64,000 bases of DNA from Phormidesmis priestleyi BC1401 (GCF_001650195.1 NZ_LXYR01000016.1:1-64000); one strand, 5' to 3'. Shown: positions 22,745 through 49,426, counted from the first letter of the stretch. The notes: a model not told the origin generated them from the letters alone. Translations and numbers: made by a program.

Positions 22745-24808
22745 TCAAGCATCAAACTCATCCAGCGAGAGGTCGGGTAAGTCTGGCGGAATGACCGCAC
22801 GATCGAGCACTACTTTATGACTTTCGCGCTGGGTCGCGACTTCGACAGCGATCGCTTCGAGCTGAATCTCTAGACTGCCAAAGGGCACGATTAGCTGAGT
22901 GCTTGCCTCCAAATCACCCAAGCCGTTAGGCGCAAAATCGACGAGCCAGCGAGGACCATCTAACAAAGCACGAGTTTGGCGATCGTTGATCCAGAATTTG
23001 ACGTAGAAGCGCGGCAGAAGATTGGGAAGCCTAGCGCGAATAGCAATCGATCGACCTGCGATCAGTTCTTCACCCACAAGGTCTAAAATCGGCGTTGGAA
23101 CGTCTTGATCGAGCGATAGGAATAAGGGATTTGGAACCTGGTTTACCGAGGGCTGAGGCTGCTTTTGAGGAGTTGAGATGGCTTCTATCAGTGGCTCATC
23201 TTCTACAACGACTTCTTGACTTAACAACTTGTCTTCGAGAGAAAGTGGCAGCGCGGTCGTCTCAAAAGATGTTGAAGGAACGATCGCACCCTCAATAGGC
23301 GATTCAGGTAAAGTCGCGCTTTCTGGTTCAGGAATTGTCTCTCTTAATTCTTCGGATAACTCTGTGTCAGATGCCAACAAATTCAGCCGATCGAGAAACC
23401 GCCCCTGAATATTTAAAGCTTGAAATGCAGACTGAACGGGAGAAACTTTGGCAATCGCCCCTAGTCGCTGAGATTCGGGTTCGGGTGGGAGCGTGAGTTG
23501 AGGTTGGATTGAGGCGGACTCGATCGAGTCCGCCTCCTCAGTTTCGGGAACGATCGCGGCTTCAGCGCTGGCAGCACTAACAGGTACAGCAAACGATGGC
23601 AGATCCAGACCTTTTTTGCTGCCTTCTGAAGTTGAGGCTGACGGGTGAAGTTGAGGCGGCAACGGCTGATCTGAGGCATATTTGAAGCTCGGAGGCTCTT
23701 TAGGAGTCGCAACAAGATTTAAGAAGGTGAGATTGAGGCTGGGAGATTCGGAAGGTTTTTCAGCCGCATTGGCGGCAGACTCTAGCGATCGCTCCAGTTC
23801 TTCTTCATCCGCGATCGGGTGATCAGCGATCGTCTCCAATAGTTCATCGGCATCGGCAGTGAGCGTAAACGACTGACTCGCCAACACAGATGGCTCCTCG
23901 GAGGCTAAAGTCAAGTCATAAAAGGTAACTTCACCCAAAATCAACTGGGTCTTGAAGTCAGACGGTAGCGTCAAGTTGCAAGTGATCGGAGTTGGAATCG
24001 ATTGATTGAGAATCGGTTTGCGAGTCTCCAGCAAAACTTTGGCGCTCTGGGGGTCGCGGAAGCAAATTCTGATTTCGGCATGAGTGAGTAAGACGGGCGT
24101 TTCTGACTGATCTACTGGAATAATTTGACCTGAAAGCGTTAGCGGTTGCCCTCGACGGGCGATATAGGTGTCTTGAGTCAACACGATTTGCAGCGGAGGA
24201 AGCTGACTTGCTTGACCACTCTCTTGAGCGAGTTGCTCTGTGATTTGCAGCAAGCGATCGACAGACGATTCAGCCGCGTTGACCGATTCAGCAGGGGTTT
24301 CTTCGGGCGTGAGTTCGGGTGAATCCCAAGATTCAGCAGTCGGCTGAGAGGAAACGATCGCGGATTCTGGAGTGGAGTCGGCAATTTCGATGGTCGATTC
24401 GACGGGTTCGGGGGAGGTTTGCCAATTGGGTTCCCACTCTTCGTCTGGCTCGATCGGCGACACCTCAAACTGAACAGAATATTGCCAGCCGTTGCCCATC
24501 AGCTCTGACATCAAATCGCCAGAGCAGGTGAGTTCCCAGGTGCCAGATTTGAGAGACGTGTAGGGAATCACCACAACTAGCCCGTCTGCATTGGTGCGAT
24601 TCGATCGCTTCTGAGTGCGGCGTTTGGGCGGAACTTCTTCCGTCGCCTGATGCATGATGCGAACTTCGACATTGGTTTGTTTGCGGCTCGATCGTGCTAC
24701 GACGCGATAGCGACCTTCTAGAATTTCCACAGTCGGAGATTCTAGGGGCAACCAAGAGCGATCGCCTTCTTTTTGTAATAGAAATTCCCAATACTCCATC
24801 TCAGCCAT
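22745..24808 (-). CDS. Large acidic protein of unknown function between psaL and psaI
   Basis: A 687-residue soluble protein. Residues 1-130 and the last roughly 130 look globular and beta-rich (WEFLLQKEGDRSWLPLES; ISIAIRARLPNLLPRFYVKFW-type segment near 595). The middle is acidic and rich in Glu, Pro, Ser and Ala and probably disordered. The folded parts resemble immunoglobulin-like beta-sandwich modules (QDTYIARRGQPLTLSGQI), which is a weak reading. No signal peptide or membrane segment. I recall similar long proteins in other cyanobacteria but no function. An alternative ATG lies three codons in. Codon use matches the neighbours, so recent transfer is not indicated. Confidence 0.72.
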   Translation of the reverse strand: MAEMEYWEFLLQKEGDRSWLPLESPTVEILEGRYRVVARSSRKQTNVEVRIMHQATEEVPPKRRTQKRSNRTNADGLVVVIPYTSLKSGTWELTCSGDLMSELMGNGWQYSVQFEVSPIEPDEEWEPNWQTSPEPVESTIEIADSTPESAIVSSQPTAESWDSPELTPEETPAESVNAAESSVDRLLQITEQLAQESGQASQLPPLQIVLTQDTYIARRGQPLTLSGQIIPVDQSETPVLLTHAEIRICFRDPQSAKVLLETRKPILNQSIPTPITCNLTLPSDFKTQLILGEVTFYDLTLASEEPSVLASQSFTLTADADELLETIADHPIADEEELERSLESAANAAEKPSESPSLNLTFLNLVATPKEPPSFKYASDQPLPPQLHPSASTSEGSKKGLDLPSFAVPVSAASAEAAIVPETEEADSIESASIQPQLTLPPEPESQRLGAIAKVSPVQSAFQALNIQGRFLDRLNLLASDTELSEELRETIPEPESATLPESPIEGAIVPSTSFETTALPLSLEDKLLSQEVVVEDEPLIEAISTPQKQPQPSVNQVPNPLFLSLDQDVPTPILDLVGEELIAGRSIAIRARLPNLLPRFYVKFWINDRQTRALLDGPRWLVDFAPNGLGDLEASTQLIVPFGSLEIQLEAIAVEVATQRESHKVVLDRAVIPPDLPDLSLDEFDA

Positions 24809-27606: not shown

Positions 27607-29925
27607 ATGCAAAACGATCAGCCCATTCTTCAGTGCTCTAATTTTTTCTGTCAGGCTCTCAATCTAGAAAGCCACAGATTTTGTCACAAGTGTCGATCGC
27701 CGCTGATTAAGCGGTATTTGTGGGCAGTCGGATCAGGGTTAGAAGCGTTTGCGTCTGGGGAGTTGGTGGGCGATCGCTATCTGCTCAAAAATGGTCAAAT
27801 TCTCCTCGATACGAAGCCGGGTTTAGCTCCCGAAAGCCCCTCTGAAATCCCGGCAAAGTGGGAAGTGTATTTACGGTTGTCTCCGCTTCGACTCCACGTT
27901 CCGCAGATCTATGGAGTAGTGACAGAACCGCGATCGACCTCGACGCTTCTTTTGTTAGAAGATGCGCCGATTTATCCCGACGGAGCAACGCTGAGACAAG
28001 GCACCGATTTGGCTGGCAGCATGATGCCAAAGCTGACGAGTCTTTGGCAAGAAAGTCATTCCCTCCGGCAGCTTAATTGGCTGTGGCAGATTTCTCGATT
28101 ATGGGAGCCGTTTTGTCAAGAGCATGTAGCTTCTACTCTTCTAAACTCTGATCTGCTGCGGGTTGATGCGTCTGCTGTCCGATTGTTAGATGTGCAGCCC
28201 GACTCTCAAGAAAGTCCGACTTTGGCAGAGTTGGGTCAGCTTTGGGAACAGTGGCAAGAACAAAGTGCTGCTTCCTCGATTTCGGGCTTTCTGTCTCAAC
28301 TTTGTCAGCACATGATCCAGGGGCAGATCAGAACAGGAGATCAGCTAATGGATCGGCTGGATCAGGGAGTGACTCATTATGGGTGGAGTCAGACGCGAAA
28401 AATTCAGATTGCGACGTTTACTGACCAAGGTCCGAGTCGTCAGAGCAATGAAGATGCGTGTTATCCGGCGAGTGGAAGCCAGGTTGAGTTGACGATCGGA
28501 CAAGCCTCAAAATCCTCGGCAAAACCTCTACTGATTGTCTGTGATGGCATTGGCGGACACGAAGGCGGAGAAGTGGCATCGGAGTTAGCGATCGCCACCC
28601 TAAAAGCCCAAACCGAAAACCTATTCTCAACCACCCATCACACTGACGCAGCGACCTTAGTGAGCGGACTAGAACAAGCTGCCCTTGTCGCAAATGATGT
28701 AATTTCGCAGCGCAACGATCAAGAACATCGCCAAGAACGTCAGCGCATGGGAACTACTCTAGTCATGGCACTCGCTCACGCCCATGAGCTATTGGTGTCT
28801 CATGTGGGTGACAGCCGCGCCTACCGAGTTACCCGAACGGGATGCTACCAAGTCACGTTAGATGATGATGTCGCATCGAGAGAAGTTCGGTTAGGGTATG
28901 CCCTTTATCGAGATGCCCTTCAGCAACCTGCCTCTGGCGCTCTCGTTCAGGCTTTGGGAATGAGTAGTTCTAACTTTCTGCATCCGACCGTGCAGCGGTT
29001 TGTGTTGGACGAAGATTGTGTGTTTCTGCTCTGCTCAGATGGGTTGAGCGACCACGATCGAGTCGATGAATGTTGGCAAGATGAGATTGCCCCAATTTTG
29101 GACGGCAGTGTTGATCTCGCAGCCGCAAGCCGTCGATTAGTTGAGATTGCCAATACTCGCAATGGACACGACAACGTTACAGTGGGCTTGGTCTATTGTC
29201 AGGTGACGCAAAATCAGACCTCGATCGCTCCTTTAGAGATAGATTGGACTCGATCGACTGCACGACTTGCTGAACGCTCGCCCAATGAGCCTTTAGAAGA
29301 ATTTCCATCTCAACCCTCTACTCTGAAAACTCAGATTGCTCAACCGCCGCGATCGTCTTTTTGGGTCTTGTCATTGTTGGTGATGCTGCTGTCACTGCTG
29401 GGCATTGGCGGACTGCTGGTGCTGCTAGTGCCTGAGATTCGAGCCATGCTGAACCCGGTTAATTTATCGCCACCTAGCCCGACTCCGATTGCCAGTTCTC
29501 CGATTCCTACGGTTAGCCCCTCGACTACTCCCGCGTTACAAACGAGACAGGTGATTCAGCTCGATCGCCCTTCTGCAAGTAACGGCACTCAAATTCCGGT
29601 GCTGTTTGCATTGACCCGTCAACCCAAGATCTCAGTGCCTTCTACAGCAGAACAACGGGTTGGGAGCGTAGTGCCAGGGACGATCGTGCGAGTAGTCAAA
29701 CAGCAAGCAACCGATGATCGCATCTTGTGGGTTGGGCTTGAAGTCTGCTCTGTCCCGGCTGACAATAAGATGTCTAACACCGTCAAACCAGGAGATTTTG
29801 GCTGGCAGGAAGAACGGACGATCGTGCCGTTTGTCACCCAAAATCTAAGCCTCAAACCTGTTCAACTAGGACGATGTGCGCCTTCTGCCTCGTCCGCTAC
29901 TCCTTTCCCCTCGGCGACTCCCTGA
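27607..29925 (+). CDS. Zinc-ribbon / pseudokinase-like / PP2C protein phosphatase
   Basis: A 772-residue multidomain protein. A CX4C...CX2C zinc ribbon (C10, C15, C26, C29) is followed by about 200 residues that look like a degenerate protein kinase (GDRYLLKNG, LLLLEDAP, LLRVDASAVRLLDVQP) without catalytic Lys or HRD/DFG motifs. A PP2C domain (about 266-535) has all the metal-binding motifs: RQSNEDACYP, VCDGIGGHEGGE, SHVGDSRAYR, LLCSDGLSD and GHDNVTV. A transmembrane helix (about 584-608) follows, then a Pro/Ser linker and an SH3-like extracytoplasmic domain. It probably dephosphorylates Ser/Thr targets at the membrane. The FHA-containing gene downstream is an obvious candidate partner. The pseudokinase and SH3 calls are inferences. 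Confidence 0.82.
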   Translation: MQNDQPILQCSNFFCQALNLESHRFCHKCRSPLIKRYLWAVGSGLEAFASGELVGDRYLLKNGQILLDTKPGLAPESPSEIPAKWEVYLRLSPLRLHVPQIYGVVTEPRSTSTLLLLEDAPIYPDGATLRQGTDLAGSMMPKLTSLWQESHSLRQLNWLWQISRLWEPFCQEHVASTLLNSDLLRVDASAVRLLDVQPDSQESPTLAELGQLWEQWQEQSAASSISGFLSQLCQHMIQGQIRTGDQLMDRLDQGVTHYGWSQTRKIQIATFTDQGPSRQSNEDACYPASGSQVELTIGQASKSSAKPLLIVCDGIGGHEGGEVASELAIATLKAQTENLFSTTHHTDAATLVSGLEQAALVANDVISQRNDQEHRQERQRMGTTLVMALAHAHELLVSHVGDSRAYRVTRTGCYQVTLDDDVASREVRLGYALYRDALQQPASGALVQALGMSSSNFLHPTVQRFVLDEDCVFLLCSDGLSDHDRVDECWQDEIAPILDGSVDLAAASRRLVEIANTRNGHDNVTVGLVYCQVTQNQTSIAPLEIDWTRSTARLAERSPNEPLEEFPSQPSTLKTQIAQPPRSSFWVLSLLVMLLSLLGIGGLLVLLVPEIRAMLNPVNLSPPSPTPIASSPIPTVSPSTTPALQTRQVIQLDRPSASNGTQIPVLFALTRQPKISVPSTAEQRVGSVVPGTIVRVVKQQATDDRILWVGLEVCSVPADNKMSNTVKPGDFGWQEERTIVPFVTQNLSLKPVQLGRCAPSASSATPFPSATP

Positions 29926-30064
29926 TGCCACTCCCAAGATTTGAGGCGCAAAGTTTAGCGAAGCTCGATACACTGATAAAGCACTGGGTGTCATGGTTGA
30001 TCAGACCGCATGGAATGAGTGATTCATCTACTATTTAAGAAGTTAGGATTGGTTGTGGTTGTGA

Positions 30065-31759
30065 ATGTCTTTGCCTGAAATTCCTTGTTTAAGTCTTGCG
30101 ATCGAGCGTCTTCGTGCCACTGAAGTCAGTCACTTTGCGATTCATGTGATTGAGGCTCCCTATAAAGGGGGCTATGTTTTGCGCGACTGCACTTGGTCTG
30201 AGTCACTGGTTCAAACCTGGCACGCGTGGCAAGAATTATTTTCTGCGCGTAGTTTGCCCCCAGTGCCTCACGTTTCTGAGGTGAAGATCCCGGCACCCGT
30301 GGCTGAGGCGACTACTCCATCAGGTCAGCCTGTTTCTCGCGGGGTGCGCTTGATGCAGACGTTGGGAATTGATCTGTGGGGGTGGCTGTTTGGAGGTTCT
30401 ATTCAAAGTAGCTTTGACCAAAGTCAGGGCATTGCGATCGGACAAGCGAAACCTCTGCGTCTGCGTCTCGACATTCGCGACCCTGATTTGATTGCAATTC
30501 CGTGGGAGATCATGCAGATTCAGGCAGGGAAGCAAGCCATTTCGCTTAGTCAGCAGGTGCTGTTTAGTCGCACGACTAGCGATGTTGATGCCCTTCCCCC
30601 GCTGCGGACGGATCAGAGTTTAGCAGTTTTGCTAGTGTTGGGACAGGATGCTGCGCCCGCAGTTCCACCGATTTCAGGAGGGTTGGATGACCTGTCTTCG
30701 CGGGCGTTGCGCGATCGTCAGCCAACCCTCAAAAAACTCAAGCTAGAGCAAGAAGCCGCTGCGCTGTCTCAAATCTTGCAAAATCGAGGAGGATTGGGCA
30801 ACCCTTCCGATCGCAACGCCTACCAATATGCGGCTCCCTGTCAGGTGGATATTCTGCTGCAACCCACTCCGGCTGAACTGATTGAAAAGCTGGAAACTGA
30901 GCGCTACAACGTCCTGTTTTATGCAGGGCATGGCGAGCCTGCTCCTGATGGTGGGCTGTTGTTTTTGCGCCCCGATATGACGCTCAACGGCACCGAGTTG
31001 GCGCAAGTGCTCACCCGTTGTCGGGTCAAGCTGGCGGTGTTTAACTCCTGCTGGGGCGCACAGCCCGACGAGCAAACCTATCAGGCGATTCCGCGCAGTA
31101 GTTTAGCGGAGGTGCTATTGCATCACGGAGTCCCGGCGGTGTTGGCAATGCGGGAGCCGATCACCGATCAGGAGGCTCTGAGTTTTATTCAGGCATTTGC
31201 TCAGGCGCTGGCAGATCGGATGCCGATCGACCAAGCCGTTGCGGTGGCAAGACAGCATCTCCTGACATTATTTAAGTTTAATCAGCAAGCCTGGACGCTG
31301 CCCGTCCTCTATATGCACCCAGAATTTGAGGGTGAATTGCTGAAACCGTTGGATGAAGGCGCGACTCAATTTCCGCCAAATCCGAGCCAGTTTGGGCGAC
31401 GATCGGCGATCGCATCCCTACGATCGCTAGTGACTACCAAAGTCTGGACGGTGCGCGGGGGGCTGATGCGCGTCGGCATGAGTGACGATAATGATTTGGT
31501 TTTGCCTGGAGAACCGGGAATTTCTCGCAGGCACGCTGAGATTTTTTATCGCAATGCGTCTCAAGATACCGGGCAACCGACCTACTTTTTGCGCGACTTT
31601 TCTCGCTATGGCACTTGGGTGTTTACGAGTGGCGGCTGGCAAAAAGTCCACCATCAAGAAGTCTTGCTTCAGTCCGGCGTGCAGTTAAAATTTGGAGGAT
31701 CGCAAAATTCTACGTTAGAGTTTTCGGTCACGGCTCCCGAATCGCCTGACTCGGCATAA
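30065..31759 (+). CDS. CHAT protease-like protein with C-terminal FHA domain
   Basis: A 564-residue protein. The central CHAT domain, a caspase-like clan CD fold, carries the catalytic pair His about 288 (FYAGHGEPAPDGG) and Cys about 327 (FNSCWGAQ). A C-terminal FHA domain (about 460-555) shows VGMSDDNDLVLPGEPGISRRHAEI, the phospho-threonine-binding signature. The N-terminal 200 residues include a region before the CHAT core found in related cyanobacterial proteins. FHA would recruit the protease to phosphorylated partners. It follows the PP2C gene by about 140 bases on the same strand, suggesting a phosphorylation-controlled module. Substrates are unknown. Confidence 0.85.
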   Translation: MSLPEIPCLSLAIERLRATEVSHFAIHVIEAPYKGGYVLRDCTWSESLVQTWHAWQELFSARSLPPVPHVSEVKIPAPVAEATTPSGQPVSRGVRLMQTLGIDLWGWLFGGSIQSSFDQSQGIAIGQAKPLRLRLDIRDPDLIAIPWEIMQIQAGKQAISLSQQVLFSRTTSDVDALPPLRTDQSLAVLLVLGQDAAPAVPPISGGLDDLSSRALRDRQPTLKKLKLEQEAAALSQILQNRGGLGNPSDRNAYQYAAPCQVDILLQPTPAELIEKLETERYNVLFYAGHGEPAPDGGLLFLRPDMTLNGTELAQVLTRCRVKLAVFNSCWGAQPDEQTYQAIPRSSLAEVLLHHGVPAVLAMREPITDQEALSFIQAFAQALADRMPIDQAVAVARQHLLTLFKFNQQAWTLPVLYMHPEFEGELLKPLDEGATQFPPNPSQFGRRSAIASLRSLVTTKVWTVRGGLMRVGMSDDNDLVLPGEPGISRRHAEIFYRNASQDTGQPTYFLRDFSRYGTWVFTSGGWQKVHHQEVLLQSGVQLKFGGSQNSTLEFSVTAPESPDSA

Positions 31760-31880
31760 GTGCAGCCAAATCTGATCACCCGATCGGGCTAATTTATGAA
31801 TTGGGTTACGGAATGTGTAACGGGCGAGTTGTAGATATCACCACAAACAGCAGTGACTCAGTGGATGCGGGTATTACAGT

Positions 31881-32534
31881 ATGGCAAGTGAAGCAAATCG
31901 TTCTCATTCGATCGTAGGTCTGCAAACCGAGCAAGACTTCGCAAACGCACTTCTTCAAACCGACGATGTGACCCTACGGTGGAATCCGAACAACTCCATT
32001 GATACGGTTGAGATTGAGGTGGCAGAAACCCCCACCAGCACAATCTCCTATCCCTGGAATCCGACCGACCCTGGTGCCGAGTCATTTCTTTTAGAACTCG
32101 AACGAGAGTTTTCGTTAGAGGACTGGGATGACAGCGAGGTTGCTTTACGATCGAGCGCTTTCTTTAACCAGCTTGACGGACTGTGGGCAGCTACTGACTT
32201 AAAAACGACGCTGGCTCAAAAATTTGCATCGGTGCCTCAGACGCTATTGGCGGCGATCGCGCGTCAGGCTCAAAAAGTGGTTGAGACTTCTAACTCTCTG
32301 GCAGATCAGTTGGTGCAGTGTGTTCAAGAAGCCCTACCGACGTGGGCAGATGATGATTTGCAGGTGTTGGCGCGTCCTTTCGCGTATGCGATGCGAAGCG
32401 ATGGTGCAAATGTTGTCGATGCGACGGTGAATAGCGTTCGCCCGATCGCGTGGAGTGATTTGTCTGAAACGGAACAAGCGCGGATGAGTTTGGCGATCGC
32501 GCGCTATGCAATCGACCAGTTAGGCAACCCCTAA
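31881..32534 (+). CDS. Protein of unknown function downstream of the CHAT-FHA gene
   Basis: A 217-residue acidic soluble protein. A Trp-containing N-terminus (DDVTLRWNPNNSIDTVEIEV) leads into a helical C-terminal part (AQKFASVPQTLLAAIARQAQ). No known motif is recognised. Its position 121 bases after the CHAT-FHA gene on the same strand makes it a candidate third component, substrate or regulator; that is inference. A terminator follows. Confidence 0.7.
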   Translation: MASEANRSHSIVGLQTEQDFANALLQTDDVTLRWNPNNSIDTVEIEVAETPTSTISYPWNPTDPGAESFLLELEREFSLEDWDDSEVALRSSAFFNQLDGLWAATDLKTTLAQKFASVPQTLLAAIARQAQKVVETSNSLADQLVQCVQEALPTWADDDLQVLARPFAYAMRSDGANVVDATVNSVRPIAWSDLSETEQARMSLAIARYAIDQLGNP

Positions 32535-32567: not shown

Positions 32568-32594
32568 AGGCGTGGCGGTGTCACGCCCTTTTTG
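32568..32594 (+). terminator. Terminator after the PP2C/CHAT/217-aa cluster
   Basis: aggcgtg and cacgccc make a 6-7-bp stem followed by TTTTTG. It sets the cluster apart from guaD. Confidence 0.65.
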
Positions 32595-34379: not shown

Positions 34380-37300
34380 ATGGCAACGCGCAACCGACCT
34401 TCGTTTTTTCTAGCTCTTCAGTTGAGTCTTCTTTGCACATCAGTAATTGTGCCAATACCCCAAAAGGCACTGGCAACTAGTCCGTCTGCCCTTTCGGCGC
34501 AGGTTCATAAGTTGGCAAGCAGTTCGTCGCCTGAGTCAGCGATCGCTACGCTTAAAAAAGAGGGTGCCCCAGCGATCGAGGCACTGATTCACGTCATCAA
34601 AGACCGCAAAGAGCCGCAATCTGTGCGATTGTTTGCGATCGCGGCGATCGCAGAGATGGGTGCGGATGCAAAAACGGCGGTTCCTGCTTTGGTGTCGGTG
34701 CTTCAAGATTCGCCTCCCGCGATTCGTCTAAAGGCGATCGAGGCACTGGCAGGGATTGGCGCGAATGCAAAAGCGGCAGTGCCCGAACTGCGGAGCGTCT
34801 TAACGGATAAAGATTCTAGTGACGAGGTGCGTCAGGCAGCCATAAAAGCGCTGGGAAGGATTGGCACAAACGCAAAAGCGGCGGTTCCTGATTTGATCGA
34901 TGCCCTCAACGATCCCAGTGAAGCCGTGCGGACTCAAGCCATCAATGCGCTGCCCAGTTTAGGACCAGAGGCAAAAGTCGCCATTCCAGAACTGGTGCCG
35001 ACGCTCTCTGATTTGTCTAGGGATGTGCGACTCGCCGCGATCGCCGCCCTCGCCCGCTTTGGACAAGATGCAAAACCCACGGTCAAAGCCCTCGCTCAAC
35101 TCTTATCTGACCCCGATCGCCAAATTCGCCTCAGCACCACGATGACTCTGAGCCGCATTGGTGCCGACGCCAGTGATGCCGTTCCTGCTCTGACGCAAGC
35201 ACTCGGAAACAGCGATCGCAACACGCGTTCTTTAGCCGCGAAAGCACTGGGCAGTATTGGCGAAGCGGCAAAGTCGGCAGTTCCTGAGTTGATAAAAGCG
35301 CTGTCTGACCCAGACAAAGATGTGCGATCGAAAGCCGCCTCTTCACTCGGCAGAATTGGACTAGAGGCACGATCGGCGCTTCCCGAATTGGTAAAGACGC
35401 TCAAAGACGAAAACTATGAGGTGCGACTCAGTTCAGCCAATGCCCTCGATCTCATTTCAGGAAGACTGCAAGACAAAGCCTCTGCGCTGACGGGCACTGA
35501 GTTAGCAGACGCTTACACGGCTCTAGCGTCTGCCCAACCGATCTTAGAAGAATCCAAAAATGATGATGTGTTGACTGCGGTGCGGCGATCGCTGAGCGTG
35601 CTCAAAACGCAAAAAGATTCGCGGTTGTTTGGGCGCTTTTTTGAGTGGAGTCACTCAAATCCGGCGATCGCCGGGGTGTTGCTCTATCTGCTGGCGATGC
35701 CGTCGCTGTGGGGGCTAATTCTGCTGATTTGTCCGCTCTGGCTGCTCAAACTCAACAATCTGCTCAAACCCTATACCGATTTTGAGATTCCTAGTCCTCT
35801 CGGTGGCAGCGTCAAGGTGCCACTGCGGTTTGTGCTGTTTTTGGCGATGTTTCACTATCATCCGCGGGTGCTAGATGCCTGGGTCGCAGAACATATTGAC
35901 GTAGCGCGGGAAGCCTTTGCCCATAAAAATACGGTGAGCGATCGTAAAGTCTATATCCCGATCCCCGTTGTGTTAGGCGGCAACACCGTCGCAGAATTGG
36001 CGAGTCAAGATTTGCACTCAACCTTTTGGGATGGGCGGCAGTGTCTATTGATCTGGGGAGAAGGCGGCATCGGCAAAACCAGTTTGGCGTGCAATTTGGC
36101 AGGATGGGCAATGGCAGACGATCGCACGTCGCGGCTCTGTCGGCATCGAATGTTGCCTGTTCTAATCGAGCAAGAACTTGATTTCAAACTGCCTGCCGAT
36201 AAACATCCGTTTCGAGAAGCGATTCGAGGACAGGTGCAGGCTCTCATTGATGCTGCCGAACCGATTTCAGATGAGTTTTTAGAAAAGTTGTTGAGACAAC
36301 GACGAATTCTCGTGATTGTCGATCGCCTCTCAGAACTCAGCGAAGCCACCCGTGAGCAGATTCGCCCCGGACACCCTGACTTTCCGGCAAATGCTCTAAT
36401 TGTGACCTCACGAGTTGAAGAAACTCTCGACGAAGTGCCCAAAACCACGGTCAAACCACTGCGGATTGAGGGCAATCGCCTTTCATCGTTCTTAGAGGCG
36501 TATCTGACGCAACGCAACAAGCGCGAACTCTTCACCGACTCAGAATATTTTGACGCGTGTAGTCAGCTTTCTAAATTAGTGGGTCAGCGCAACATCACCG
36601 TTCTGTTGGCAAAACTCTACGCCGAGCAGATGATCGCCAAAGAAGAAGGAGTCAGCGAAGACAATCTGCCAGACAACATCCCCGATTTGATGTTGAGCTA
36701 TCTCAATGAACTCAATCGCGATGCCGACGCAGATGAACCGGACAACTCCACTATTCACAAAGACGCTCAGATCATCGCCTGGGAGTGTTTGAGACAGTCT
36801 TATTATCCCGCTCCTGCTAAACGAGACGTGATTTTGGCAGAGATGGAAGCCCGATCGGGCGCAACCAGTGAAGCCGTAAAAGCGAGACTCAAACATTTAG
36901 AAAAGCGGCTGAGAATTGTGCAAGCCGTCGGACCTGCCCAAGATCAAATCTGCTTTGCCCTCGACCCATTAGCAGAATGTCTCGCGGCTCTTTATCTCGT
37001 CGAGCTTTATCGTGACCAAAAAGACCTTTGGCAAGAGTGGCTGATTCAAGCCGACGCGATGCCGGGTGCCCCAGAGAGCATTCAAGGCTTTTTGCTGGCG
37101 ATGCGCGATTGCTGCATGACCCGCAGTGCCGAAATCGATGTGCCTGACACCGTTTTAGAAGAGTTGGGTAAACGAGTAGGCTTAAGTGCCGAAACGCTAC
37201 GACGCACCCAAGTTGAACAGCGAATTCGTCGTCTCGCGCCTAATCTGGCAACTGGCGATCTGCAAGTGCGTCTAGACGCGATCTGCGAACTCGGAGAACT

Positions 37301-37853
37301 CGGATCGGCGGCAAAAACGGTTCTTCCAGCTTTGATTCGAGAATTTCAGGCACACGACTGGCAGATTCGACGTGAAGTTGCGAGAGCGATCGGGCAGATC
37401 GGACCCGAAGCCCGAACCGCGATTCCTGCTCTAGTCGATCGGCTGCGAGATGACGATCGCCGCGTCAGTGGAGAAGCGATCGCGAGTCTCGGCAAATTAG
37501 GAACCGGGGCAGTTCCCGCCCTGATTGTGGCACTCGAAGCTAAACCTGCTCACGTTCGCAGCACGGCGGCTTGGGTGCTGTCTAGCTTTAATCAGTTTGC
37601 GAGAGCAGCGGTTCCAGCATTGACTCAAGCGCTCAAAGATGACGATTGGCAAGTCCAATGGGTGGCTGCTTACGCCCTCGGCTGCATCGGACCGGATGCC
37701 AAATCCGCCATTCCTGCCTTAATCGAAGCGTTTAAAGGGGAATATGAACTGGTCAGCAAGGAAGCTAGCCGCACCCTTTGGCGAATTAGTGGAGAAGCAG
37801 AGACGATCGTGGCGGCTCTCGGCGAGATAAGCACCGGACGAGACGATAGTTAG
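34380..37853 (+). CDS. HEAT-repeat / STAND-type NTPase / HEAT-repeat protein
   Basis: A 1157-residue protein. A signal-like N-terminus (about 10-32) precedes roughly eight to nine HEAT repeats (about 50-360; units such as GIGANAKAAVPELRSVL). A transmembrane helix lies at about 430-455 (LLYLLAMPSLWGLILLIC). Next comes a P-loop NTPase with Walker A GEGGIGKTS at about 561-569 and Walker B RRILVIVDRLSEL, followed by a helical region, then four further HEAT repeats (about 970-1140). The layout is that of a STAND/NACHT-like signalling ATPase, a group that includes NLR-type immune sensors. If the signal functions, the first HEAT block faces outside and the NTPase the cytoplasm. The gene lies between two dispersed repeats. 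NACHT assignment is not certain. Confidence 0.82.
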   Translation: MATRNRPSFFLALQLSLLCTSVIVPIPQKALATSPSALSAQVHKLASSSSPESAIATLKKEGAPAIEALIHVIKDRKEPQSVRLFAIAAIAEMGADAKTAVPALVSVLQDSPPAIRLKAIEALAGIGANAKAAVPELRSVLTDKDSSDEVRQAAIKALGRIGTNAKAAVPDLIDALNDPSEAVRTQAINALPSLGPEAKVAIPELVPTLSDLSRDVRLAAIAALARFGQDAKPTVKALAQLLSDPDRQIRLSTTMTLSRIGADASDAVPALTQALGNSDRNTRSLAAKALGSIGEAAKSAVPELIKALSDPDKDVRSKAASSLGRIGLEARSALPELVKTLKDENYEVRLSSANALDLISGRLQDKASALTGTELADAYTALASAQPILEESKNDDVLTAVRRSLSVLKTQKDSRLFGRFFEWSHSNPAIAGVLLYLLAMPSLWGLILLICPLWLLKLNNLLKPYTDFEIPSPLGGSVKVPLRFVLFLAMFHYHPRVLDAWVAEHIDVAREAFAHKNTVSDRKVYIPIPVVLGGNTVAELASQDLHSTFWDGRQCLLIWGEGGIGKTSLACNLAGWAMADDRTSRLCRHRMLPVLIEQELDFKLPADKHPFREAIRGQVQALIDAAEPISDEFLEKLLRQRRILVIVDRLSELSEATREQIRPGHPDFPANALIVTSRVEETLDEVPKTTVKPLRIEGNRLSSFLEAYLTQRNKRELFTDSEYFDACSQLSKLVGQRNITVLLAKLYAEQMIAKEEGVSEDNLPDNIPDLMLSYLNELNRDADADEPDNSTIHKDAQIIAWECLRQSYYPAPAKRDVILAEMEARSGATSEAVKARLKHLEKRLRIVQAVGPAQDQICFALDPLAECLAALYLVELYRDQKDLWQEWLIQADAMPGAPESIQGFLLAMRDCCMTRSAEIDVPDTVLEELGKRVGLSAETLRRTQVEQRIRRLAPNLATGDLQVRLDAICELGELGSAAKTVLPALIREFQAHDWQIRREVARAIGQIGPEARTAIPALVDRLRDDDRRVSGEAIASLGKLGTGAVPALIVALEAKPAHVRSTAAWVLSSFNQFARAAVPALTQALKDDDWQVQWVAAYALGCIGPDAKSAIPALIEAFKGEYELVSKEASRTLWRISGEAETIVAALGEISTGRDDS

Positions 37854-38072: not shown

Positions 38073-41000
38073 ATGCCAAAGCGTGTCAGCAAATCTAACA
38101 GCCCCGAAGCCAAGAATCTAAGCGCCGACTTAGACTCGATCGCCAAACCCTCAAATCCCTCATCTCTCAATACAATCCGGGTGCGGGGTGCCCGACAGCA
38201 CAACTTAAAAAACATCGACCTAGAGTTACCCCGCGATCGGTTGATTGTGTTTACTGGGGTGTCTGGGTCTGGAAAGTCATCGCTGGCGTTTGACACCATT
38301 TTTGCAGAGGGGCAGCGACGATATGTAGAATCCCTCAGCGCTTATGCACGGCAGTTTTTGGGACAGGTCGATAAGCCTGATGTGGATGCGATCGAAGGAC
38401 TCAGCCCTGCGATTTCAATCGATCAAAAGTCCACCTCTCACAACCCGCGATCCACGGTTGGGACTGTCACCGAGATTTACGATTATCTGCGATTGCTCTA
38501 CGGGCGCGCTGGTGAGCCACACTGTCCTCATTGCGATCGCTCCATCTCGCCCCAAACGGTGGATCAGATGGTCGATCAAGTCATGGAATTGCCCGATCGG
38601 ACTCGATTTCAAGTCTTAGCGCCAGTCGTGCGCGGCAAAAAAGGGACTCATCGCAAAACGATTTCTAGCCTCAGCGCTGAGGGATTTGTGCGAATTCGGG
38701 TCGATGGCGAAGTGCGCGAACTCAGCGACTCGATCGAGCTAGACAAAAATCAACTGCACACGATCGAGATTGTCGTTGATCGTCTCGTCAAAAAAGAAGG
38801 TATCGAAGAACGCTTGGTCGATTCGCTCACGACCTGTTTGAAACACTCCAACGGGATCGCCATCATCGATTTGATGAAAGAAGAATCGACGGTCAATAAC
38901 GTTGTTGATATCAAGTCACAAAGTCTCAAGGCGGCTGAAAAGGGTGGAGCCTATCAAGTCGATGAACCGAAACCCGATGCTCAACCTGCCGAACTGGTCT
39001 TTTCAGAAAATTTCGCCTGCCCTGAACACGGCGCAGTCATGGAGGAGCTATCCCCGCGTCTGTTCTCGTTTAACTCCCCGTATGGCGCGTGTCCTAACTG
39101 TCATGGCTTGGGCAGTCACCGCAAATTTTCGCCCGATCTGGTGATCCCGAATCCGAAGTTGCCTGTTTATGCGGCGATCGCGCCCTGGTCAGACAAAGAC
39201 AACACCTATTATCTGTCGCTAATTTGCAGCGTCGCCGATGCCTTTAAGTTCGAGATTCAGACCCCGTGGGAAAAGCTCACACCTGAGCAGCAGCACGTCT
39301 TGCTGCATGGCTCTAAAGACCCGATTTGGATCGAGGCAGACTCGCGCTATCGAGAAAGCAAAGGCTATAACCGTCGCTATGAAGGCGCACTTCCTCTGCT
39401 CGAACGGCAATATCAAGAAAGCTCGTCTGACCTCTATAAGCAGAAGTTAGAGCAATATCTGATCGACCAGCCCTGTGACGACTGTGGCGGCAAACGACTC
39501 AAGCCCGAATCAATCGCGGTGCGACTCGGACAGTTTCGCATCACCGATTTAACGAGCGTTTCGATTCGAGAATGTTTGCATCGAGTCAATACCTTAAAGT
39601 TGACCGATCGTCAGGCGCAAATTGGGGATCTCGTTCTGCGAGAAATCAAGGCGCGGCTGCAATTCTTGCTCGACGTGGGACTGGATTATTTGACCATCGA
39701 TCGGACTGCCATGACGCTCTCAGGTGGTGAAGCGCAGCGAATTCGTCTCGCTACGCAAATCGGCGCAGGCTTAACCGGAGTTCTCTATGTGTTGGACGAA
39801 CCGAGTATCGGACTGCACCAGCGCGACAACACTCGACTGCTCAACACCCTGACCAAACTACGAGACTTGGGCAACACGCTGATCGTCGTCGAACATGATG
39901 AAGAAACCATTCGAGCGGCTGATTATCTCGTCGATATTGGTCCCGGTGCAGGGGTTCACGGCGGACGGATTGTGTCTCAGGGCGACTTAGAAACGCTGCT
40001 CAACACTGAAGAATCCTTGACGGGAGCCTACTTGTCAAAACGGCAGTGCATTCACACACCCGCCGATCGCCGCCCCGGAAACGGTCGATCGCTAAAAATT
40101 CGCAGTGCTGCCCGCAACAACCTTAAAGAAATCGATGTCGATATTCCATTAGGCAAACTGGTCTGCATCACTGGAGTGTCGGGTTCGGGCAAATCAACGC
40201 TGGTTAACGAACTGCTCTATCCAGCAATCCAGCACCACTTTGGACAAAAAGTTCCGCAGCCGAGAGAAATGCAGCCTGTTGAAGGACTGAACGGGCTCGA
40301 CAAAGCGATCGTGATTGACCAATCCCCGATCGGGCGCACTCCGCGATCGAATCCTGCGACTTACACAGGCGTTTTTGATGTGATTCGAGATATTTTTACC
40401 GAGACGATCGAGGCAAAAGCCAGAGGCTACAAACCAGGACAGTTCTCGTTTAACGTCAAAGGCGGACGCTGTGAGGCGTGCAGTGGTCAGGGCGTGAACG
40501 TGATCGAGATGAATTTCTTGCCCGATGTTTATGTCCAGTGCGAAGTCTGCAAAGGCGCGAGATATAACCGAGACACATTGCAGGTGAAGTTTAAAAGCAA
40601 GTCGATCGCGGATGTCTTAGCGATGACCGTCGAAGAAGCCGCCGAGTTCTTTAAAAACATTCCTCAAGCGGCGGCTCGTCTGCAAACCTTAGCTGATGTC
40701 GGTTTAGGCTATATGCGACTCGGACAAACCGCCCCAACCCTCTCTGGTGGTGAAGCTCAACGAGTCAAACTTGCGACAGAACTTTCGCGCCGCGCCACGG
40801 GCAAAACCCTCTACCTGATTGACGAGCCGACCACAGGCTTATCATTCTATGACGTTCACAAGCTGTTAGACGTGGTGCAACGCCTCGTAGATAAAGGCAA
40901 CTCTGTCCTCGTGATCGAGCACAACATGGATGTGATTCGCTGCTCAGACTGGATTATTGATTTAGGACCTGAAGGCGGCGACTTGGGCGGCGAGATCGTG

Positions 41001-41105
41001 GCGATCGGCACTCCCGAAGAGGTGGCACAAAATCCGGCTTCCTACACGGGACAATATCTCAAGCACGTTCTAGAGCAGTATCCGGTGGCTCCGATTACGG
41101 CTTAA
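38073..41105 (+). CDS. uvrA: Excinuclease ABC subunit A
   Basis: A 1010-residue damage sensor of nucleotide excision repair. Both ATP-binding halves are present: Walker A GVSGSGKSS at 62-70 and a second GVSGSGKSTL near 708, plus two signature motifs LSGGEAQR. Zinc modules are visible as CPHCDRS, CPEHGAVMEE with CPNCHGLGSH, and CEACSGQG with CEVCKGARY. An N-terminal extension of about 30 residues is unconserved. It is a single gene, 68 bases before the TPR gene. Confidence 0.97.
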   Translation: MPKRVSKSNSPEAKNLSADLDSIAKPSNPSSLNTIRVRGARQHNLKNIDLELPRDRLIVFTGVSGSGKSSLAFDTIFAEGQRRYVESLSAYARQFLGQVDKPDVDAIEGLSPAISIDQKSTSHNPRSTVGTVTEIYDYLRLLYGRAGEPHCPHCDRSISPQTVDQMVDQVMELPDRTRFQVLAPVVRGKKGTHRKTISSLSAEGFVRIRVDGEVRELSDSIELDKNQLHTIEIVVDRLVKKEGIEERLVDSLTTCLKHSNGIAIIDLMKEESTVNNVVDIKSQSLKAAEKGGAYQVDEPKPDAQPAELVFSENFACPEHGAVMEELSPRLFSFNSPYGACPNCHGLGSHRKFSPDLVIPNPKLPVYAAIAPWSDKDNTYYLSLICSVADAFKFEIQTPWEKLTPEQQHVLLHGSKDPIWIEADSRYRESKGYNRRYEGALPLLERQYQESSSDLYKQKLEQYLIDQPCDDCGGKRLKPESIAVRLGQFRITDLTSVSIRECLHRVNTLKLTDRQAQIGDLVLREIKARLQFLLDVGLDYLTIDRTAMTLSGGEAQRIRLATQIGAGLTGVLYVLDEPSIGLHQRDNTRLLNTLTKLRDLGNTLIVVEHDEETIRAADYLVDIGPGAGVHGGRIVSQGDLETLLNTEESLTGAYLSKRQCIHTPADRRPGNGRSLKIRSAARNNLKEIDVDIPLGKLVCITGVSGSGKSTLVNELLYPAIQHHFGQKVPQPREMQPVEGLNGLDKAIVIDQSPIGRTPRSNPATYTGVFDVIRDIFTETIEAKARGYKPGQFSFNVKGGRCEACSGQGVNVIEMNFLPDVYVQCEVCKGARYNRDTLQVKFKSKSIADVLAMTVEEAAEFFKNIPQAAARLQTLADVGLGYMRLGQTAPTLSGGEAQRVKLATELSRRATGKTLYLIDEPTTGLSFYDVHKLLDVVQRLVDKGNSVLVIEHNMDVIRCSDWIIDLGPEGGDLGGEIVAIGTPEEVAQNPASYTGQYLKHVLEQYPVAPITA

Positions 41106-41173: not shown

Positions 41174-42973
41174 ATGAACAGCGATCGTATCCGAGGGGAT
41201 CGGGCAGAGAATCTAGAACAGTCGATCGCGGCTTACGAATTAGCTTTACAGGTTTACACTCGTGAGGCATTCCCAGAAGATTGGGCGAGGACGCAAAACA
41301 ATCTGGGAATTGCCTACCGCAACCGTATCCGAGGGGATCGGGCAGAGAATCTAGAACAATCGATCGCGGCTTACGAATTATCCTTACAGGTGAGAACTCG
41401 TGAGGCATTCCCAGAAGATTGGGCGGAGACGCAAAACAATCTGGGAATTGCTCATAACCATCGCATTCAAGGGGATCGAGCAGAGAATTTAGAACAGTCG
41501 ATCGCGGTTTACGAATTAGCTTTACAGGTTTGCACTCGTGAGGCATTTCCAGAAGATTGGGCAGGGCTGCAAAACAATCTGGGAAATGCTTACAGCGATC
41601 GCATTCAAGGGGATCGGGCAGAGAATCTAGAACAGTCGATCGCGGCTTACGAATTAGCTTTACAGGTGAGAACCCGTGAGGCATTCCCAGCAGATTGGGC
41701 AATGACGCAAAACAATCTGGGAACTGCTTACAGCGATCGCATTCGAGGGGATCGGGCAGAGAATCTAGAACAGTCGATCGCGGCTTACGAATTAGCTTTA
41801 CAGGTGAGAACCCGTGAGGCATTCCCAGCAGATTGGGCAATGACGCAAAACAATCTGGGAACTGCTTACAGCGATCGCATCCGAGGGGATCGGGCAGAGA
41901 ATCTAGAACAGTCGATCGCGGCTTACGAATTAGCTTTACAGGTGAGAACCCGTGAGGCATTCCCAGAAAAATGGGCAGGGACGCAAAACAATCTGGGCAG
42001 TGCTTACAGTGGTCGTATCCGAGGAGATCGGGCAGAGAATCTAGAACAGTCGATCGCGGCTTACGAATTAGCTTTACAGGTGAGAACCCGTGAGGCATTC
42101 CCAGAACAGTGGGCAATGACGCAAAACAATCTGGGAAATGCTTACAGCGATCGCATCCGAGGGGATCGGGCAGAGAATCTAGAACAGTCGATCGCGGCTT
42201 ACGAATTAGCTTTACAGGTGAGAACCCGTGAGGCATTCCCAGAAGATTGGGCAATGAGTCAAGGGAACCTAGCAGCAGTTCTGATGCAACGTGCCTCCCT
42301 GACTGAGAGTGATACCGATCTAGAGACTGCCATTGCCCTGCTAAAGGCAGCGCTAGACGTTGCTGCTCCCAACAGTCCTAACTTCATCAACTCCCAATAT
42401 CGGCTGGGCATTGCCCTCTCCCGTCGCTATGAACACAGCCAAAATTCCAGCGACCTAGAGCAGGCATTGCAAGCCTACAAGATTGCCTTAGACGCGATTA
42501 GTCCCGAACATTACGACAGAAAACAAATCTGGCAAGCCCTACCGACCACTCAATCCATTTTGGGCAGTCGCCTAGTGCGCGAAGGCAAATGGCAAGAAGG
42601 ACTCCAGCTTTTGCTCAACAGCGTCCGGCAACTCAGCACCGGAGACGATCCTCTAGCTCACGCTAACGCCCTTTTCCAAACAGGACGCGCTCACGAAACC
42701 CTCTCTGATTGGGACAACGCCCGTCTTTATTATCGAGATGCTCTCCGTCTCTACGACCACCTCAAAAATGAACTAGGCATCGCCAAAAGCCGTGCCGGAC
42801 TGGGAAGTGTCCTCGTGTCGCAAGGATATTTAGAAAAAGGTCTCGCCGAACTCGATAAAGCGCGTGAAAGCTATCATCAGTTGCAACAGCCCGATAAAGC
42901 GGCTGAAGTCGATATTATTTACCAAGCTGCCCAACGCGCAATGGAACGGCAAACGACCGAGGCATACGTATGA
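41174..42973 (+). CDS. Tetratricopeptide-repeat protein with near-identical 46-residue units
   Basis: A 599-residue helical protein. Residues 5-365 are about eight tandem 46-residue units of the type RIRGDRAENLEQSIAAYE + LALQVRTREAFPEDWAMTQ + NNLGNAYSD, a TPR variant common in cyanobacterial signalling proteins. The C-terminal 230 residues are less regular TPRs. The ATG at 41174 lies inside a repeat unit, so the original N-terminus may have been lost or the gene may start naturally there. It overlaps the start of the downstream ATPase gene (ATGA), indicating coupled translation. Presumably a scaffold or sensor for that ATPase. Confidence 0.82.
   Translation: MNSDRIRGDRAENLEQSIAAYELALQVYTREAFPEDWARTQNNLGIAYRNRIRGDRAENLEQSIAAYELSLQVRTREAFPEDWAETQNNLGIAHNHRIQGDRAENLEQSIAVYELALQVCTREAFPEDWAGLQNNLGNAYSDRIQGDRAENLEQSIAAYELALQVRTREAFPADWAMTQNNLGTAYSDRIRGDRAENLEQSIAAYELALQVRTREAFPADWAMTQNNLGTAYSDRIRGDRAENLEQSIAAYELALQVRTREAFPEKWAGTQNNLGSAYSGRIRGDRAENLEQSIAAYELALQVRTREAFPEQWAMTQNNLGNAYSDRIRGDRAENLEQSIAAYELALQVRTREAFPEDWAMSQGNLAAVLMQRASLTESDTDLETAIALLKAALDVAAPNSPNFINSQYRLGIALSRRYEHSQNSSDLEQALQAYKIALDAISPEHYDRKQIWQALPTTQSILGSRLVREGKWQEGLQLLLNSVRQLSTGDDPLAHANALFQTGRAHETLSDWDNARLYYRDALRLYDHLKNELGIAKSRAGLGSVLVSQGYLEKGLAELDKARESYHQLQQPDKAAEVDIIYQAAQRAMERQTTEAYV
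41186..42260 (+). repeat. Tandem 138-bp coding repeats of the TPR gene
   Basis: Eight units of 138 bp (the last incomplete) beginning near 41186, 41324, 41462, 41600, 41738, 41876, 42014 and 42152. Long stretches such as cgatcgcggcttacgaatta are the same in nearly every unit, and units 4 to 6 differ by only a few bases, which implies recent expansion or gene conversion. Confidence 0.88.
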
Positions 42974-44238
42974 CCACTGCCGACGACATTTTTGATCAAT
43001 CGTCTAGCAACATCCAGCGATTAGGACTCAAGGAAATCCCCTTCACCGAAAGCCCGATCGACCTGCGAAGCGAAACCTTACAGCGCATCTTCACAGGACG
43101 ACAGAATGAACTGCGTCAGATGTTTAATCTGTTCCAGAGCCGTGAACGTCGCCGAATTCTTGTCTATGGTCGGCTGGGCATTGGCAAAAGTGCCTTTTTA
43201 CTAGAAGTCCTATCAGTCTTGCGCCGGAAGCGTCCGAAGATGTTGACGACCTACATCTCCCTCCCCGCAAATCTGGACTTGGCAACTACCGCCTTGATTG
43301 CAGTAGCACGAGCCATGCCAGACGACAATTGGGCACAGAGTCAGCTTTACCAAATGGGTATTCCAACCGAACAGGCACTGAAAGAACGCAGCACAAAAGC
43401 CTCTGCAAATATGGTTTTTGGTGCCGAGTTGAGCGAGAAGGATTTACCCATTACCAAACCGCAGTACCCCACTGTGAGCCTGGAAACCCTGCTGGAGCGG
43501 GCACAAGAAAAATATCCCGAAGGGGTTGTGATCGCCATTGATGACCTCGACAAGCAAAACCCCAGCGTCGTGCGCCAACTGATGCACGATGCTCAGGGCA
43601 TGTTGAAGGGACGAGCCTGGTTCTTGCTAACCGGACACCCAATGGGCATGACTGGAGACTTGCTGACCAGTGAACGCGGCTTGTTTGACCTGCAACTAAA
43701 GCTAGAAGAACTGGATCTGCCAACGACTTATCAGATGCTGATTAATTACCTCAGTAGCGCCCGGATTAACAATAATTGCACTGATCCTAAAGACCCGCGT
43801 TGTGTTCTGCCCTTCCTGCCAGAAACAGCAAAACGATTCTGTGAGGTCTCTCTCGGCAAGCCTCGTCTCTTTAATCGCTTGGGCAACACAGTCCTGTCAA
43901 CGGCTGCTGACCTTCAGGCAAAGGTGATTACTCCAGACGTACTAGAACAAGGGTTGCGGGCTGCTGCCTTGACCTTACATCAGCAAGCGGCTTTGACTGT
44001 GCAAGAAGAACGGGTTCGTGTGCTATTGCTACAACGGGGTACTCTTTCTGATGACACAATAACGATGGATGATCTCGAACAGATAGGCTTCCGCAGTTTT
44101 AGTGATGCCTATCTTATTTTAGAAAGACTGGAAGAAGCAGATCTCGCTCACCAGTTAAATCAAGACGCTGCCAAAGCATTTGCACCGATTCCTTTGCCCC
44201 CTTCTGACGATGAGTTTCTTTCACTCGGCGGGAGTTAA
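42970..44238 (+). CDS. Orc/Cdc6-like AAA ATPase partnered with the TPR protein
   Basis: A 422-residue P-loop ATPase. Walker A is GRLGIGKS at 67-74, Walker B is VVIAIDDLDK at about 188-197, and a sensor-like WFLLTGHP follows. The C-terminal region (about 330-400) looks like a winged helix (LEQIGFRSFSDAYLILERLE). The order resembles Orc1/Cdc6 and STAND-like AAA ATPases. Its start overlaps the TPR stop, so the pair forms one operon. No effector domain is visible in it; the role is unknown. Confidence 0.8.
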   Translation: MTTADDIFDQSSSNIQRLGLKEIPFTESPIDLRSETLQRIFTGRQNELRQMFNLFQSRERRRILVYGRLGIGKSAFLLEVLSVLRRKRPKMLTTYISLPANLDLATTALIAVARAMPDDNWAQSQLYQMGIPTEQALKERSTKASANMVFGAELSEKDLPITKPQYPTVSLETLLERAQEKYPEGVVIAIDDLDKQNPSVVRQLMHDAQGMLKGRAWFLLTGHPMGMTGDLLTSERGLFDLQLKLEELDLPTTYQMLINYLSSARINNNCTDPKDPRCVLPFLPETAKRFCEVSLGKPRLFNRLGNTVLSTAADLQAKVITPDVLEQGLRAAALTLHQQAALTVQEERVRVLLLQRGTLSDDTITMDDLEQIGFRSFSDAYLILERLEEADLAHQLNQDAAKAFAPIPLPPSDDEFLSLGGS

Positions 44239-47510: not shown

Positions 47511-49111
47511 ATGATGCACCGAGCAATGCTCGAAAAAGTTCAGCCTGTCCCACGGCAACGTCAGTCATTCGGTCGATTTTCTAAATGGTTCTCTCCAAGC
47601 TGGTATGCCAAACGGTTGACTCCAAGCTGGCAAGCCTGCATTCCCATTGCACTGACGATCGTGCTGGGGTGGAGCTACGCCGGAATGACCCAAACCCCGC
47701 CGACGCTAGAAAGTATTTCTCAGGCAACTGCCGAACTGAAAGTCGGCATTGACACCATGTGGGTGATGATCGCCGCCATGCTGGTGTTTTTCATGAATGC
47801 TGGATTTTGTAAGCTCGAAACGGGCATGTGTCGCCAGAAAAACGCAGTCAACGTACTGACGAAAAACCTAGTCGTCTTCGCGCTCTCAACCGTGGCATTT
47901 TGGGCGATCGGCTTTGGAATCATGTTCAGCAACAGCAATAGCTTTTTGGGTGCCAGCGGCGGATTTTTCCTGTCGGGTGCAGACAACAGCCCCGCGATCG
48001 GAGATGCCTATCAGGGCATTTTCTCAGCGCTGAACTGGACGGGCGTTCCGCTCGGCGCAAAATTCTTCTTCCAACTCGTATTTGCTGGAACAGCCGCCAC
48101 GATCGTGTCGGGCGCAGTGGCAGAGCGCATCAAATTTCTTGACTTTTTGATCTTCAGCCTGCTGCTGGTCGGAATCGCTTACCCCATCACCGGGCACTGG
48201 ATTTGGGGCGGCGGCTGGCTGGCAGGTTTAGGCTTTTATGACTTTGCTGGCTCGACGGTCGTTCACGCAGTTGGCGGCTGGGCTGCCTTGATGGGAGCCG
48301 CCTTTCTTGGACCCAGAATCGGCAAGTACAACGCAGATGGCTCTGCAAATGCGTTGCCTGCTCACAACATGAGCATTGCCACTCTAGGAGCGCTGATTCT
48401 GTGGCTAGGCTGGTTTGGCTTTAACCCCGGCTCGACGATGGGTGTAGGCAATGGCTCACTGATTGCTCACATTGCGTTGACGACCAACACTGCTGGGGCA
48501 TTTGGGGCACTTGCAGCCACCATCACTGCCTGGGTGGTTTTGGGCAAGCCTGACCTCTCCCTGACCTCTCAATGATTATCAATGGTCTATTGGCAGGATT
48601 GGTTGCAGTGACGGCTCCTTGTGCGTTTGTCAGTGTCACTTCGGCAGCGATTATTGGCACGATCGGGGGCATCTTAGTTGGGTTTGCCGTGGGCTTTTTT
48701 GACAAGCTGCACATTGACGATCCGGTTGGTGCGGTTTCTGTTCACTTGGTTAATGGCGTTTGGGGCACGTTAGCGCTTGGTTTGTTTAGTCAAGCTGGAC
48801 AGTTTGGGGCGGCACCTGCACCCGCCGCCGGACTGTTGTTCGGGGGCGGCATCGGTCAGCTTTGGATACAGTTTTTAGGAACCATTTCTGTGGGCGGGGC
48901 TACCGTTTTGCTATCTAGCATTTTCTGGTTTGCGCTCAAGGCGACTTTGGGCATTCGTGTCAGCGCTGAGGAGGAGTTTGAAGGGTTGGACATTGGCGAA
49001 CACGGGATGGAGGCATACGCAGGCTTCGCGAAAGATACGTCAGGAATGTCTTCGAGCCGAGCGAATGTTTCGTCTGGCGACATCTCAAATGTGACAAATC
49101 CTTACCCATAA
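47511..49111 (+). pseudogene. amt: Ammonium transporter gene split by an 11-bp tandem duplication
   Basis: An Amt-family permease in two frames. The first frame (47511-48575, 354 residues) contains the early and middle helices (MNAGFCKLETGMCRQKN, GHWIWGGGWLAGLGFYDF, GWFGFNPGS). The second (48572-49111, 179 residues) holds the last helices from [17 protein letters not shown] to the conserved end [20 protein letters not shown]. The break coincides with a perfect tandem copy of cctgacctctc (48549-48559 and 48560-48570). Removing one copy restores [12 protein letters not shown] in one frame. The stop and the next ATG overlap as ATGA, so some reinitiation is conceivable. A second, intact amt follows. 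Confidence 0.88.
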
Positions 49112-49330: not shown

Positions 49331-49426
49331 AGAATTAAGTGGTGTAAAGCTGTGGAATTCAATCATATCAATTAAGTTCGGTCTATTGCCGAATTAGAGT
49401 TCTTGGCGTTGAAGGTTGAAAGTCTA

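Follow-up and report, generated by a model that had tools for sequence, protein, structure and literature searches.

A phosphatase, a CHAT-FHA protease and a small helical protein encoded together in many cyanobacteria look like an undescribed, HetF-related coupling of protein phosphorylation to targeted proteolysis

In the genome of Phormidesmis priestleyi BC1401 (GCF_001650195.1), a gene for a PP2C-type phosphatase, a gene for a protein that joins a CHAT domain to an FHA domain and a gene of no known family follow one another on the same strand. This arrangement raises the question of whether the three genes belong together and whether they could link the phosphorylation state of a protein to proteolysis. 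The window analysed here is a stretch of 64,000 nucleotides (NZ_LXYR01000016.1:1-64000), which is part of contig C16 of the 5.55 Mb genome. ORF calling gave three plus-strand ORFs at 27607-29925 (gene 1, 772 aa), 30065-31759 (gene 2, 564 aa) and 31881-32534 (gene 3, 217 aa), separated by gaps of 139 and 121 bp. A terminator-like stem-loop with an 8-pair stem, followed by the T run CTTTTTG, was found at 32569-32587 (+), in agreement with the preliminary description of three same-strand genes that end at one terminator. A weak stem was seen between genes 2 and 3, and a promoter scan gave no match on the plus strand. Pfam assigned a PP2C domain (PP2C_2, 3.7e-13) to gene 1, and a CHAT domain (3.5e-21) and an FHA domain (1.2e-11) to gene 2.

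We compared 80 named loci around the CHAT-FHA protease, 61 of which had enough flanking sequence for neighbour counts. Gene 3 was located downstream of gene 2, within about 420 bp, in 49 of the 61 loci, gene 1 was located upstream in 38, and the full trio was linked in 30; neither gene 1 nor gene 3 stood beside gene 2 in four. The other neighbours in the window (hisS, a luxR-type gene, the genes for a 156-aa and a 687-aa protein, an amidohydrolase gene and a NACHT gene) were retained in only 1-7 of the 80 loci. The three genes are thus not scattered but keep their order in most relatives. Since this order recurs across cyanobacterial families and the flanking genes do not, it reflects more than chance, and the trio is almost certainly a conserved genetic module. 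When the three proteins were compared pairwise across 30 loci, their identities correlated at 0.82-0.90, and the trio has apparently been inherited vertically. Among named proteins the closest, with 91% identity, comes from Phormidesmis priestleyi ULC007.

Among 386 cyanobacterial genomes, gene 2 was present in 87 (HetF-only matches set aside) and gene 3 in 89, with both in 86; gene 3 occurred alone in three genomes (G005, G123 and G207) and gene 2 alone in one (G237). The two genes were adjacent on the same strand in many of the genomes that bear both, and in the largest sampled family (f7) gene 1 usually also precedes the pair. They co-occurred even where they lie apart or on different contigs, as in family f6, genus g49 and the genomes G286, G116, G131, G111 and G211.

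Homologues of gene 1, at 1e-40, were found in 124 of the 386 genomes, and most genomes contained a second, more distant homologue besides gene 1 itself. Many of the 124 genomes lack gene 2, which indicates that gene 1 has other roles. In several families, moreover, genes 2 and 3 are still adjacent while gene 1 is not linked to gene 2. This distribution would fit an explanation in which genes 1 and 2 stand together by ancestral order without a common mechanism and function is confined to the pair of genes 2 and 3. Such a persistence of ancestral order is at odds with the failure of the other neighbours to stay with the trio and with a linker motif of gene 1, described below, that tracks the presence of gene 2, and we consider it unlikely. 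As a genetic association, the connection of a Ser/Thr phosphatase with a CHAT protease is well supported.

Several other features were observed in the window. A gene at 34380-37853 (+) encodes a STAND NTPase of 1157 aa with the domain order HEAT-NACHT-NCH4-HEAT; it lies 390 bp past the amidohydrolase gene that neighbours the trio, and was found beside the trio in 1 of the 80 related loci. The 687-aa protein (22745-24808, -) had no family match, and its gene is syntenic with hisS in only a few relatives. A TPR protein gene overlaps an AAA_16 ATPase gene by 4 bases at 41174-44238 (+), possibly forming a two-gene NTPase system, and is preceded by a UvrA-like gene at 38073-41105. An ammonium transporter is encoded by two overlapping ORFs at 47511-49111 (+), between which the Pfam profile is split cleanly at 252/253; either the amt gene is frameshifted or the sequence contains an error here. 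A second amt gene, which is intact, lies downstream at 49403-50848.

The CHAT (caspase-like) domain of gene 2 is encoded at 30449-31279 (+). The preliminary description had placed its catalytic residues at His 288 and Cys 327; the domain was recovered, but the invariant pair is His289 (30929-30931) and Cys329 (31049-31051), both of which are present in all 129 rows of the alignment. The CHAT active site residues are therefore intact in the aligned sequences of gene 2 and its orthologues. A profile of this CHAT family scored 218 bits against the genome's own HetF-like gene and 203 bits against that of a relative. It matched another CHAT gene of the genome weakly, with 36 bits, and did not match the other cyanobacterial CHAT loci tested, including ordinary TPR-CHAT. 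Since these scores favour the HetF genes, HetF is the nearest relative of gene 2. The genome contains four CHAT genes; in two other genomes (G129 and G060) the CHAT genes are much expanded, with 37 and 27 matches.

HetF is a CHAT protease that acts at the divisome and in heterocyst formation and cleaves PatU3 (PMC12288457), and its domain plan includes C-terminal TM and TPR regions (PMC8406250). HetF of Anabaena (alr3546) shares with gene 2 a cyanobacterial CHAT domain with a conserved active site. Gene 2 is, however, not HetF itself. The NCBIfam HetF model gave 163.1 bits over residues 97-428 only, against a cut-off of 1200, and Pfam detected only the CHAT and FHA domains in gene 2, with no TM or TPR domain; the FHA domain takes the place of the TM-TPR half. 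Unlike HetF, gene 2 stands beside a PP2C gene and gene 3, and the genome encodes a HetF-like protein separately.

CHAT domains also occur in conflict and cell-death systems, and the preliminary description drew on Craspase-type TPR-CHAT proteins. In a stress-triggered conflict or self-killing module of this kind, comparable to Craspase or caspase-like effector systems, phosphorylation would free a protease that damages the cell. PADLOC gave weak scores for SAVED_CHAT (24.5 bits) and for BovA (14.7 bits), which, like the nearby NACHT-HEAT gene, would be consistent with such a module, whereas the vertical inheritance, the matched divergence across the trio and the relationship to HetF rather than TPR-CHAT argue against it. 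The NACHT gene, as noted, accompanies the trio at a single locus, and scans of nearby genes gave no CRISPR, vWA-MoxR or VMAP match. A role in conflict or cell death is thus not favoured, and we regard it as very unlikely.

Craspase (Csx29 TPR-CHAT with Csx30) resembles genes 2 and 3 in that a small gene adjoins a CHAT protease gene, but in Csx29 a TPR region is fused to CHAT and the gene lies beside those of Cas7-11 and Csx30, whereas gene 2 lacks TPR and the scanned neighbours included no Cas genes. PADLOC gave no Csx29 match for the trio; on domain content, PADLOC scores and the CHAT profile, we rejected membership in Craspase or SAVED-CHAT. Conflict systems of the GAP1-N2 type (Kaur et al. 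2020, PMC7159879) likewise link kinase, zinc ribbon and PP2C genes, but they have an active kinase and are centred on a vWA protein and a GTPase, none of which was seen at the trio. Pfam scans of 18 window proteins detected none of the vWA and MoxR ATPase genes that a vWA-MoxR-VMAP ternary conflict system would have in its cluster.

Gene 1 encodes, in order, a zinc ribbon, a predicted pseudokinase, a PP2C domain, a linker, a TM helix and a C-terminal domain. The zinc ribbon (27634-27693, +) contains four nearly invariant cysteines, Cys10, Cys15, Cys26 and Cys29, and the DZR family was found in 62 of 73 homologues, which confirms this domain. AlphaFold2 modelled the first 265 residues at a pLDDT of 94.6. 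In Foldseek, the predicted N-terminal fold matched PknG (E 3.2e-4), and residues 46-263 (27742-28395, +) of the model resemble PknG, the PAN3 pseudokinase and the pseudokinase of Rv3910/MurJ with VIA Z-scores of 10-11, up to 11.1. It was the predicted fold alone that found kinases; a search of the PDB by sequence with the N-terminal profile found none. The VAIK Lys and the HRD and DFG residues are missing throughout the gene 1 family. Since a kinase-like fold is combined with the loss of these catalytic residues, the label of pseudokinase is right, and the N-terminus is predicted with high confidence to be a pseudokinase like that of mycobacterial MurJ.

The PP2C catalytic domain (28414-29211, +) was full, as had been described: Asp283, Asp313, Gly314, Asp478 and Asp522, among which are the metal-binding Asp residues, and the GDSR motif were conserved in 132 of 132 aligned rows, so that the active-site residues of the phosphatase are intact in the alignment. 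This part (residues 262-537) scored 274 bits against the serine/threonine phosphatase model PRK14559/NF011149, below the cut-off of 374; gene 1 shares the PP2C part with that family but differs from it in the linker motif and in the extension at the C-terminus. A transmembrane helix was predicted by hydropathy at residues 585-608 (29359-29430, +), and a TM-like stretch follows the linker in 93 of 94 scanned gene 1 rows associated with gene 2. The tail of gene 1 had been described as SH3-like, but Pfam gave no match to it in any of 20 homologues, which leaves the SH3-like character as a visual impression only.

The pairing of a membrane-bound pseudokinase with an FHA protein is known from mycobacteria, where the MurJ pseudokinase is phosphorylated by PknB and forms a complex with FhaA (PMC6180346). 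Among the solved structures matched by the gene 1 pseudokinase is 3oun, in which the Rv3910 pseudokinase is bound to the FHA domain of FhaA. The trio resembles MurJ (MviN/Rv3910) and FhaA in that a membrane protein with a cytoplasmic pseudokinase is paired with an FHA protein. The two systems differ in both components: the membrane protein is a flippase in mycobacteria but carries a PP2C domain in the trio, and the FHA protein of the trio is a CHAT protease, a role not known for FhaA. The likeness of the modelled pseudokinase to that of Rv3910 is therefore suggestive.

The FHA domain of gene 2 (31469-31696, +) was confirmed by Pfam, and the FHA profile of the gene 2 family matches DUN1, EmbR and Rv1747. 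Canonical FHA domains contact phosphothreonine through an Arg, a Ser and an Asn residue. The corresponding positions in gene 2, which we take to be the ligand contacts, are Met472, Ser487 and Tyr515. The pocket Ser was kept in 129 of 129 rows. The canonical Arg was present in 104 of the 129 rows and replaced in 25, including the Met472 of the window's protein, and the Asn of the NG motif was found in only 10, with Tyr or Phe in 112, as in Tyr515. The subfamily-wide change of Asn to Tyr or Phe together with an invariant Ser suggests an altered ligand mode, and the altered domain could still bind a phospho-ligand. Since canonical ligand contacts are lost, the reading of phosphothreonine by this FHA domain is unproven. 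Of the proposed link between phosphorylation and proteolysis, the genetic association is thus supported, whereas the reading of phosphothreonine is still a proposal.

A candidate docking site was found in gene 1. The linker between the PP2C domain and the TM helix is variable and rich in Pro, Ser and Thr, with one conserved spot, Thr575, in the juxtamembrane motif K574-T575-Q-I-A (29326-29340, +; family consensus KTQ[VLI][LIV]); in the window's own gene 1 the +3 residue is Ala. We divided the gene 1 homologues into those accompanied by gene 2 in the locus or genome (CHAT+, n=103) and the remaining ones (CHAT-, n=29). Thr was present at the Thr575 column in 83/103 CHAT+ and 10/29 CHAT- phosphatases, and Txx[ILV] in 67/103 and 2/29 (Fisher 1.8e-8, phylogeny ignored). 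Related motif patterns were seen in 66-67 of 94 CHAT+ linkers, where shuffling the linkers would lead one to expect about 6-7. Without gene 2, they were seen in 5 of 27 homologues. A tree-based test of the association between motif and protease offered about five independent contrasts and gave, for Txx[ILV], 2.2 concordant and 0.0 discordant per pairing, which is not significant. Because the motif was noticed in the same data that were used for its test and the independent contrasts are so few, it is a lead and not a proof.

FHA domains prefer pTxx[I/L/V] or pTxx[E/D] (PMC8786283). The occurrence of Txx[ILV] in the juxtamembrane linker, which is new in this analysis, matches this consensus at the level of sequence. 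The loss of the FHA Arg was not tied to loss of the motif: 11 of 13 loci without the Arg still carry it, compared with 32 of 44 with the Arg. This result and the Ala at +3 in the window's own gene 1 speak against the motif as the docking site. A rough scan of kinase loci revealed no general juxtamembrane motif in the kinases of this genome. In the genome G005, gene 2 has decayed to a remnant with stop codons (L073:4219-4383, +; tblastn E 7e-6, residues 499-553) flanked by an intact gene 1 and an intact gene 3; this gene 1 has likewise lost the linker motif. By its sequence, this genome is a natural case in which the protease alone was lost.

Gene 3 had been described as belonging to no known family, and this held: it gave no Pfam or PADLOC match and a chance-level NCBIfam match only, and 33 homologues also lacked a convincing family match. 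Common to the 33 are a YPWNP segment and, towards the C-terminus, a helical core; the invariant positions include Pro119, Asp159, Arg165, Pro166, Arg172, Trp191 and Ser195. The model of gene 3 (pLDDT 80.8) has a helical core from residue 64 and a poorly predicted N-terminus. HMM and structure searches found no convincing solved fold, with a best Foldseek E of 0.74 and a best VIA Z of 5.7, the latter in the range of unrelated helical folds; the absence of matches does not prove a new fold. The 33 homologues have no conserved Thr by which gene 3 would stand out as an FHA ligand. Nor do they conserve a basic residue in a loop, as would be expected of a cleavage site.

The tight association of gene 3 with gene 2 would be compatible with a role as partner, regulator or substrate. 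By analogy with HetF and PatU3, gene 3 might serve the CHAT protease as its dedicated substrate, or else inhibit it; the FHA domain would then bind another phosphoprotein, a kinase or another copy of the protease, and gene 1 would act on the FHA partner rather than serve as a dock. Genes 2 and 3 are the tightest pair of the trio, being adjacent in most loci and co-occurring even when unlinked, HetF as the nearest CHAT relative cleaves the regulator PatU3 (PMC12288457), and FHA domains also mediate oligomerisation (PMC8786283), all of which fits this explanation. Against it, the conserved parts of gene 3 are the YPWNP segment and the helical core and not a basic residue in a flexible segment, and three genomes have kept gene 3 in the absence of gene 2, which is odd for a mere substrate. 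This analogy is possible, if on the doubtful side, and none of the tests favoured a substrate over a regulator.

The best explanation, which we put forward tentatively, is a vertically inherited module in which a HetF-like protease, partnered by gene 3, docks phospho-dependently on a pseudokinase-phosphatase in the membrane. Gene 1, with its zinc ribbon, pseudokinase, intact PP2C domain and single TM helix, would be a membrane-anchored phosphatase and scaffold. Gene 2 would be a HetF-related CHAT cysteine protease that the FHA domain takes to its partner. The likeliest partner would be the juxtamembrane Thr motif of gene 1, phosphorylated by a Hanks kinase from another locus, of which the 23 kinase-domain matches in the genome offer candidates. 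The PP2C domain of gene 1 would reverse the Thr mark and release the protease, and gene 3 would be a dedicated protease partner, rather a regulator or adaptor. In its most specific form, with the protease docked through FHA on the linker phosphothreonine, gene 1 as both dock and reset enzyme and gene 3 in control of the protease, the proposal is speculative and rather unlikely to hold as a whole.

We know of no described CHAT protease that is gated by phosphorylation-dependent docking. In the open-access literature, to which the search was confined (subscription papers lay outside it), no paper joined a CHAT domain, an FHA domain and cyanobacteria. HetF illustrates that cyanobacteria steer division and cell fate by CHAT proteolysis. 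If the explanation is true, a second HetF-like protease would stand under Ser/Thr phosphorylation and form a phospho-controlled irreversible switch, which would provide a concrete output for the many Hanks kinases and PP2C phosphatases of cyanobacteria.
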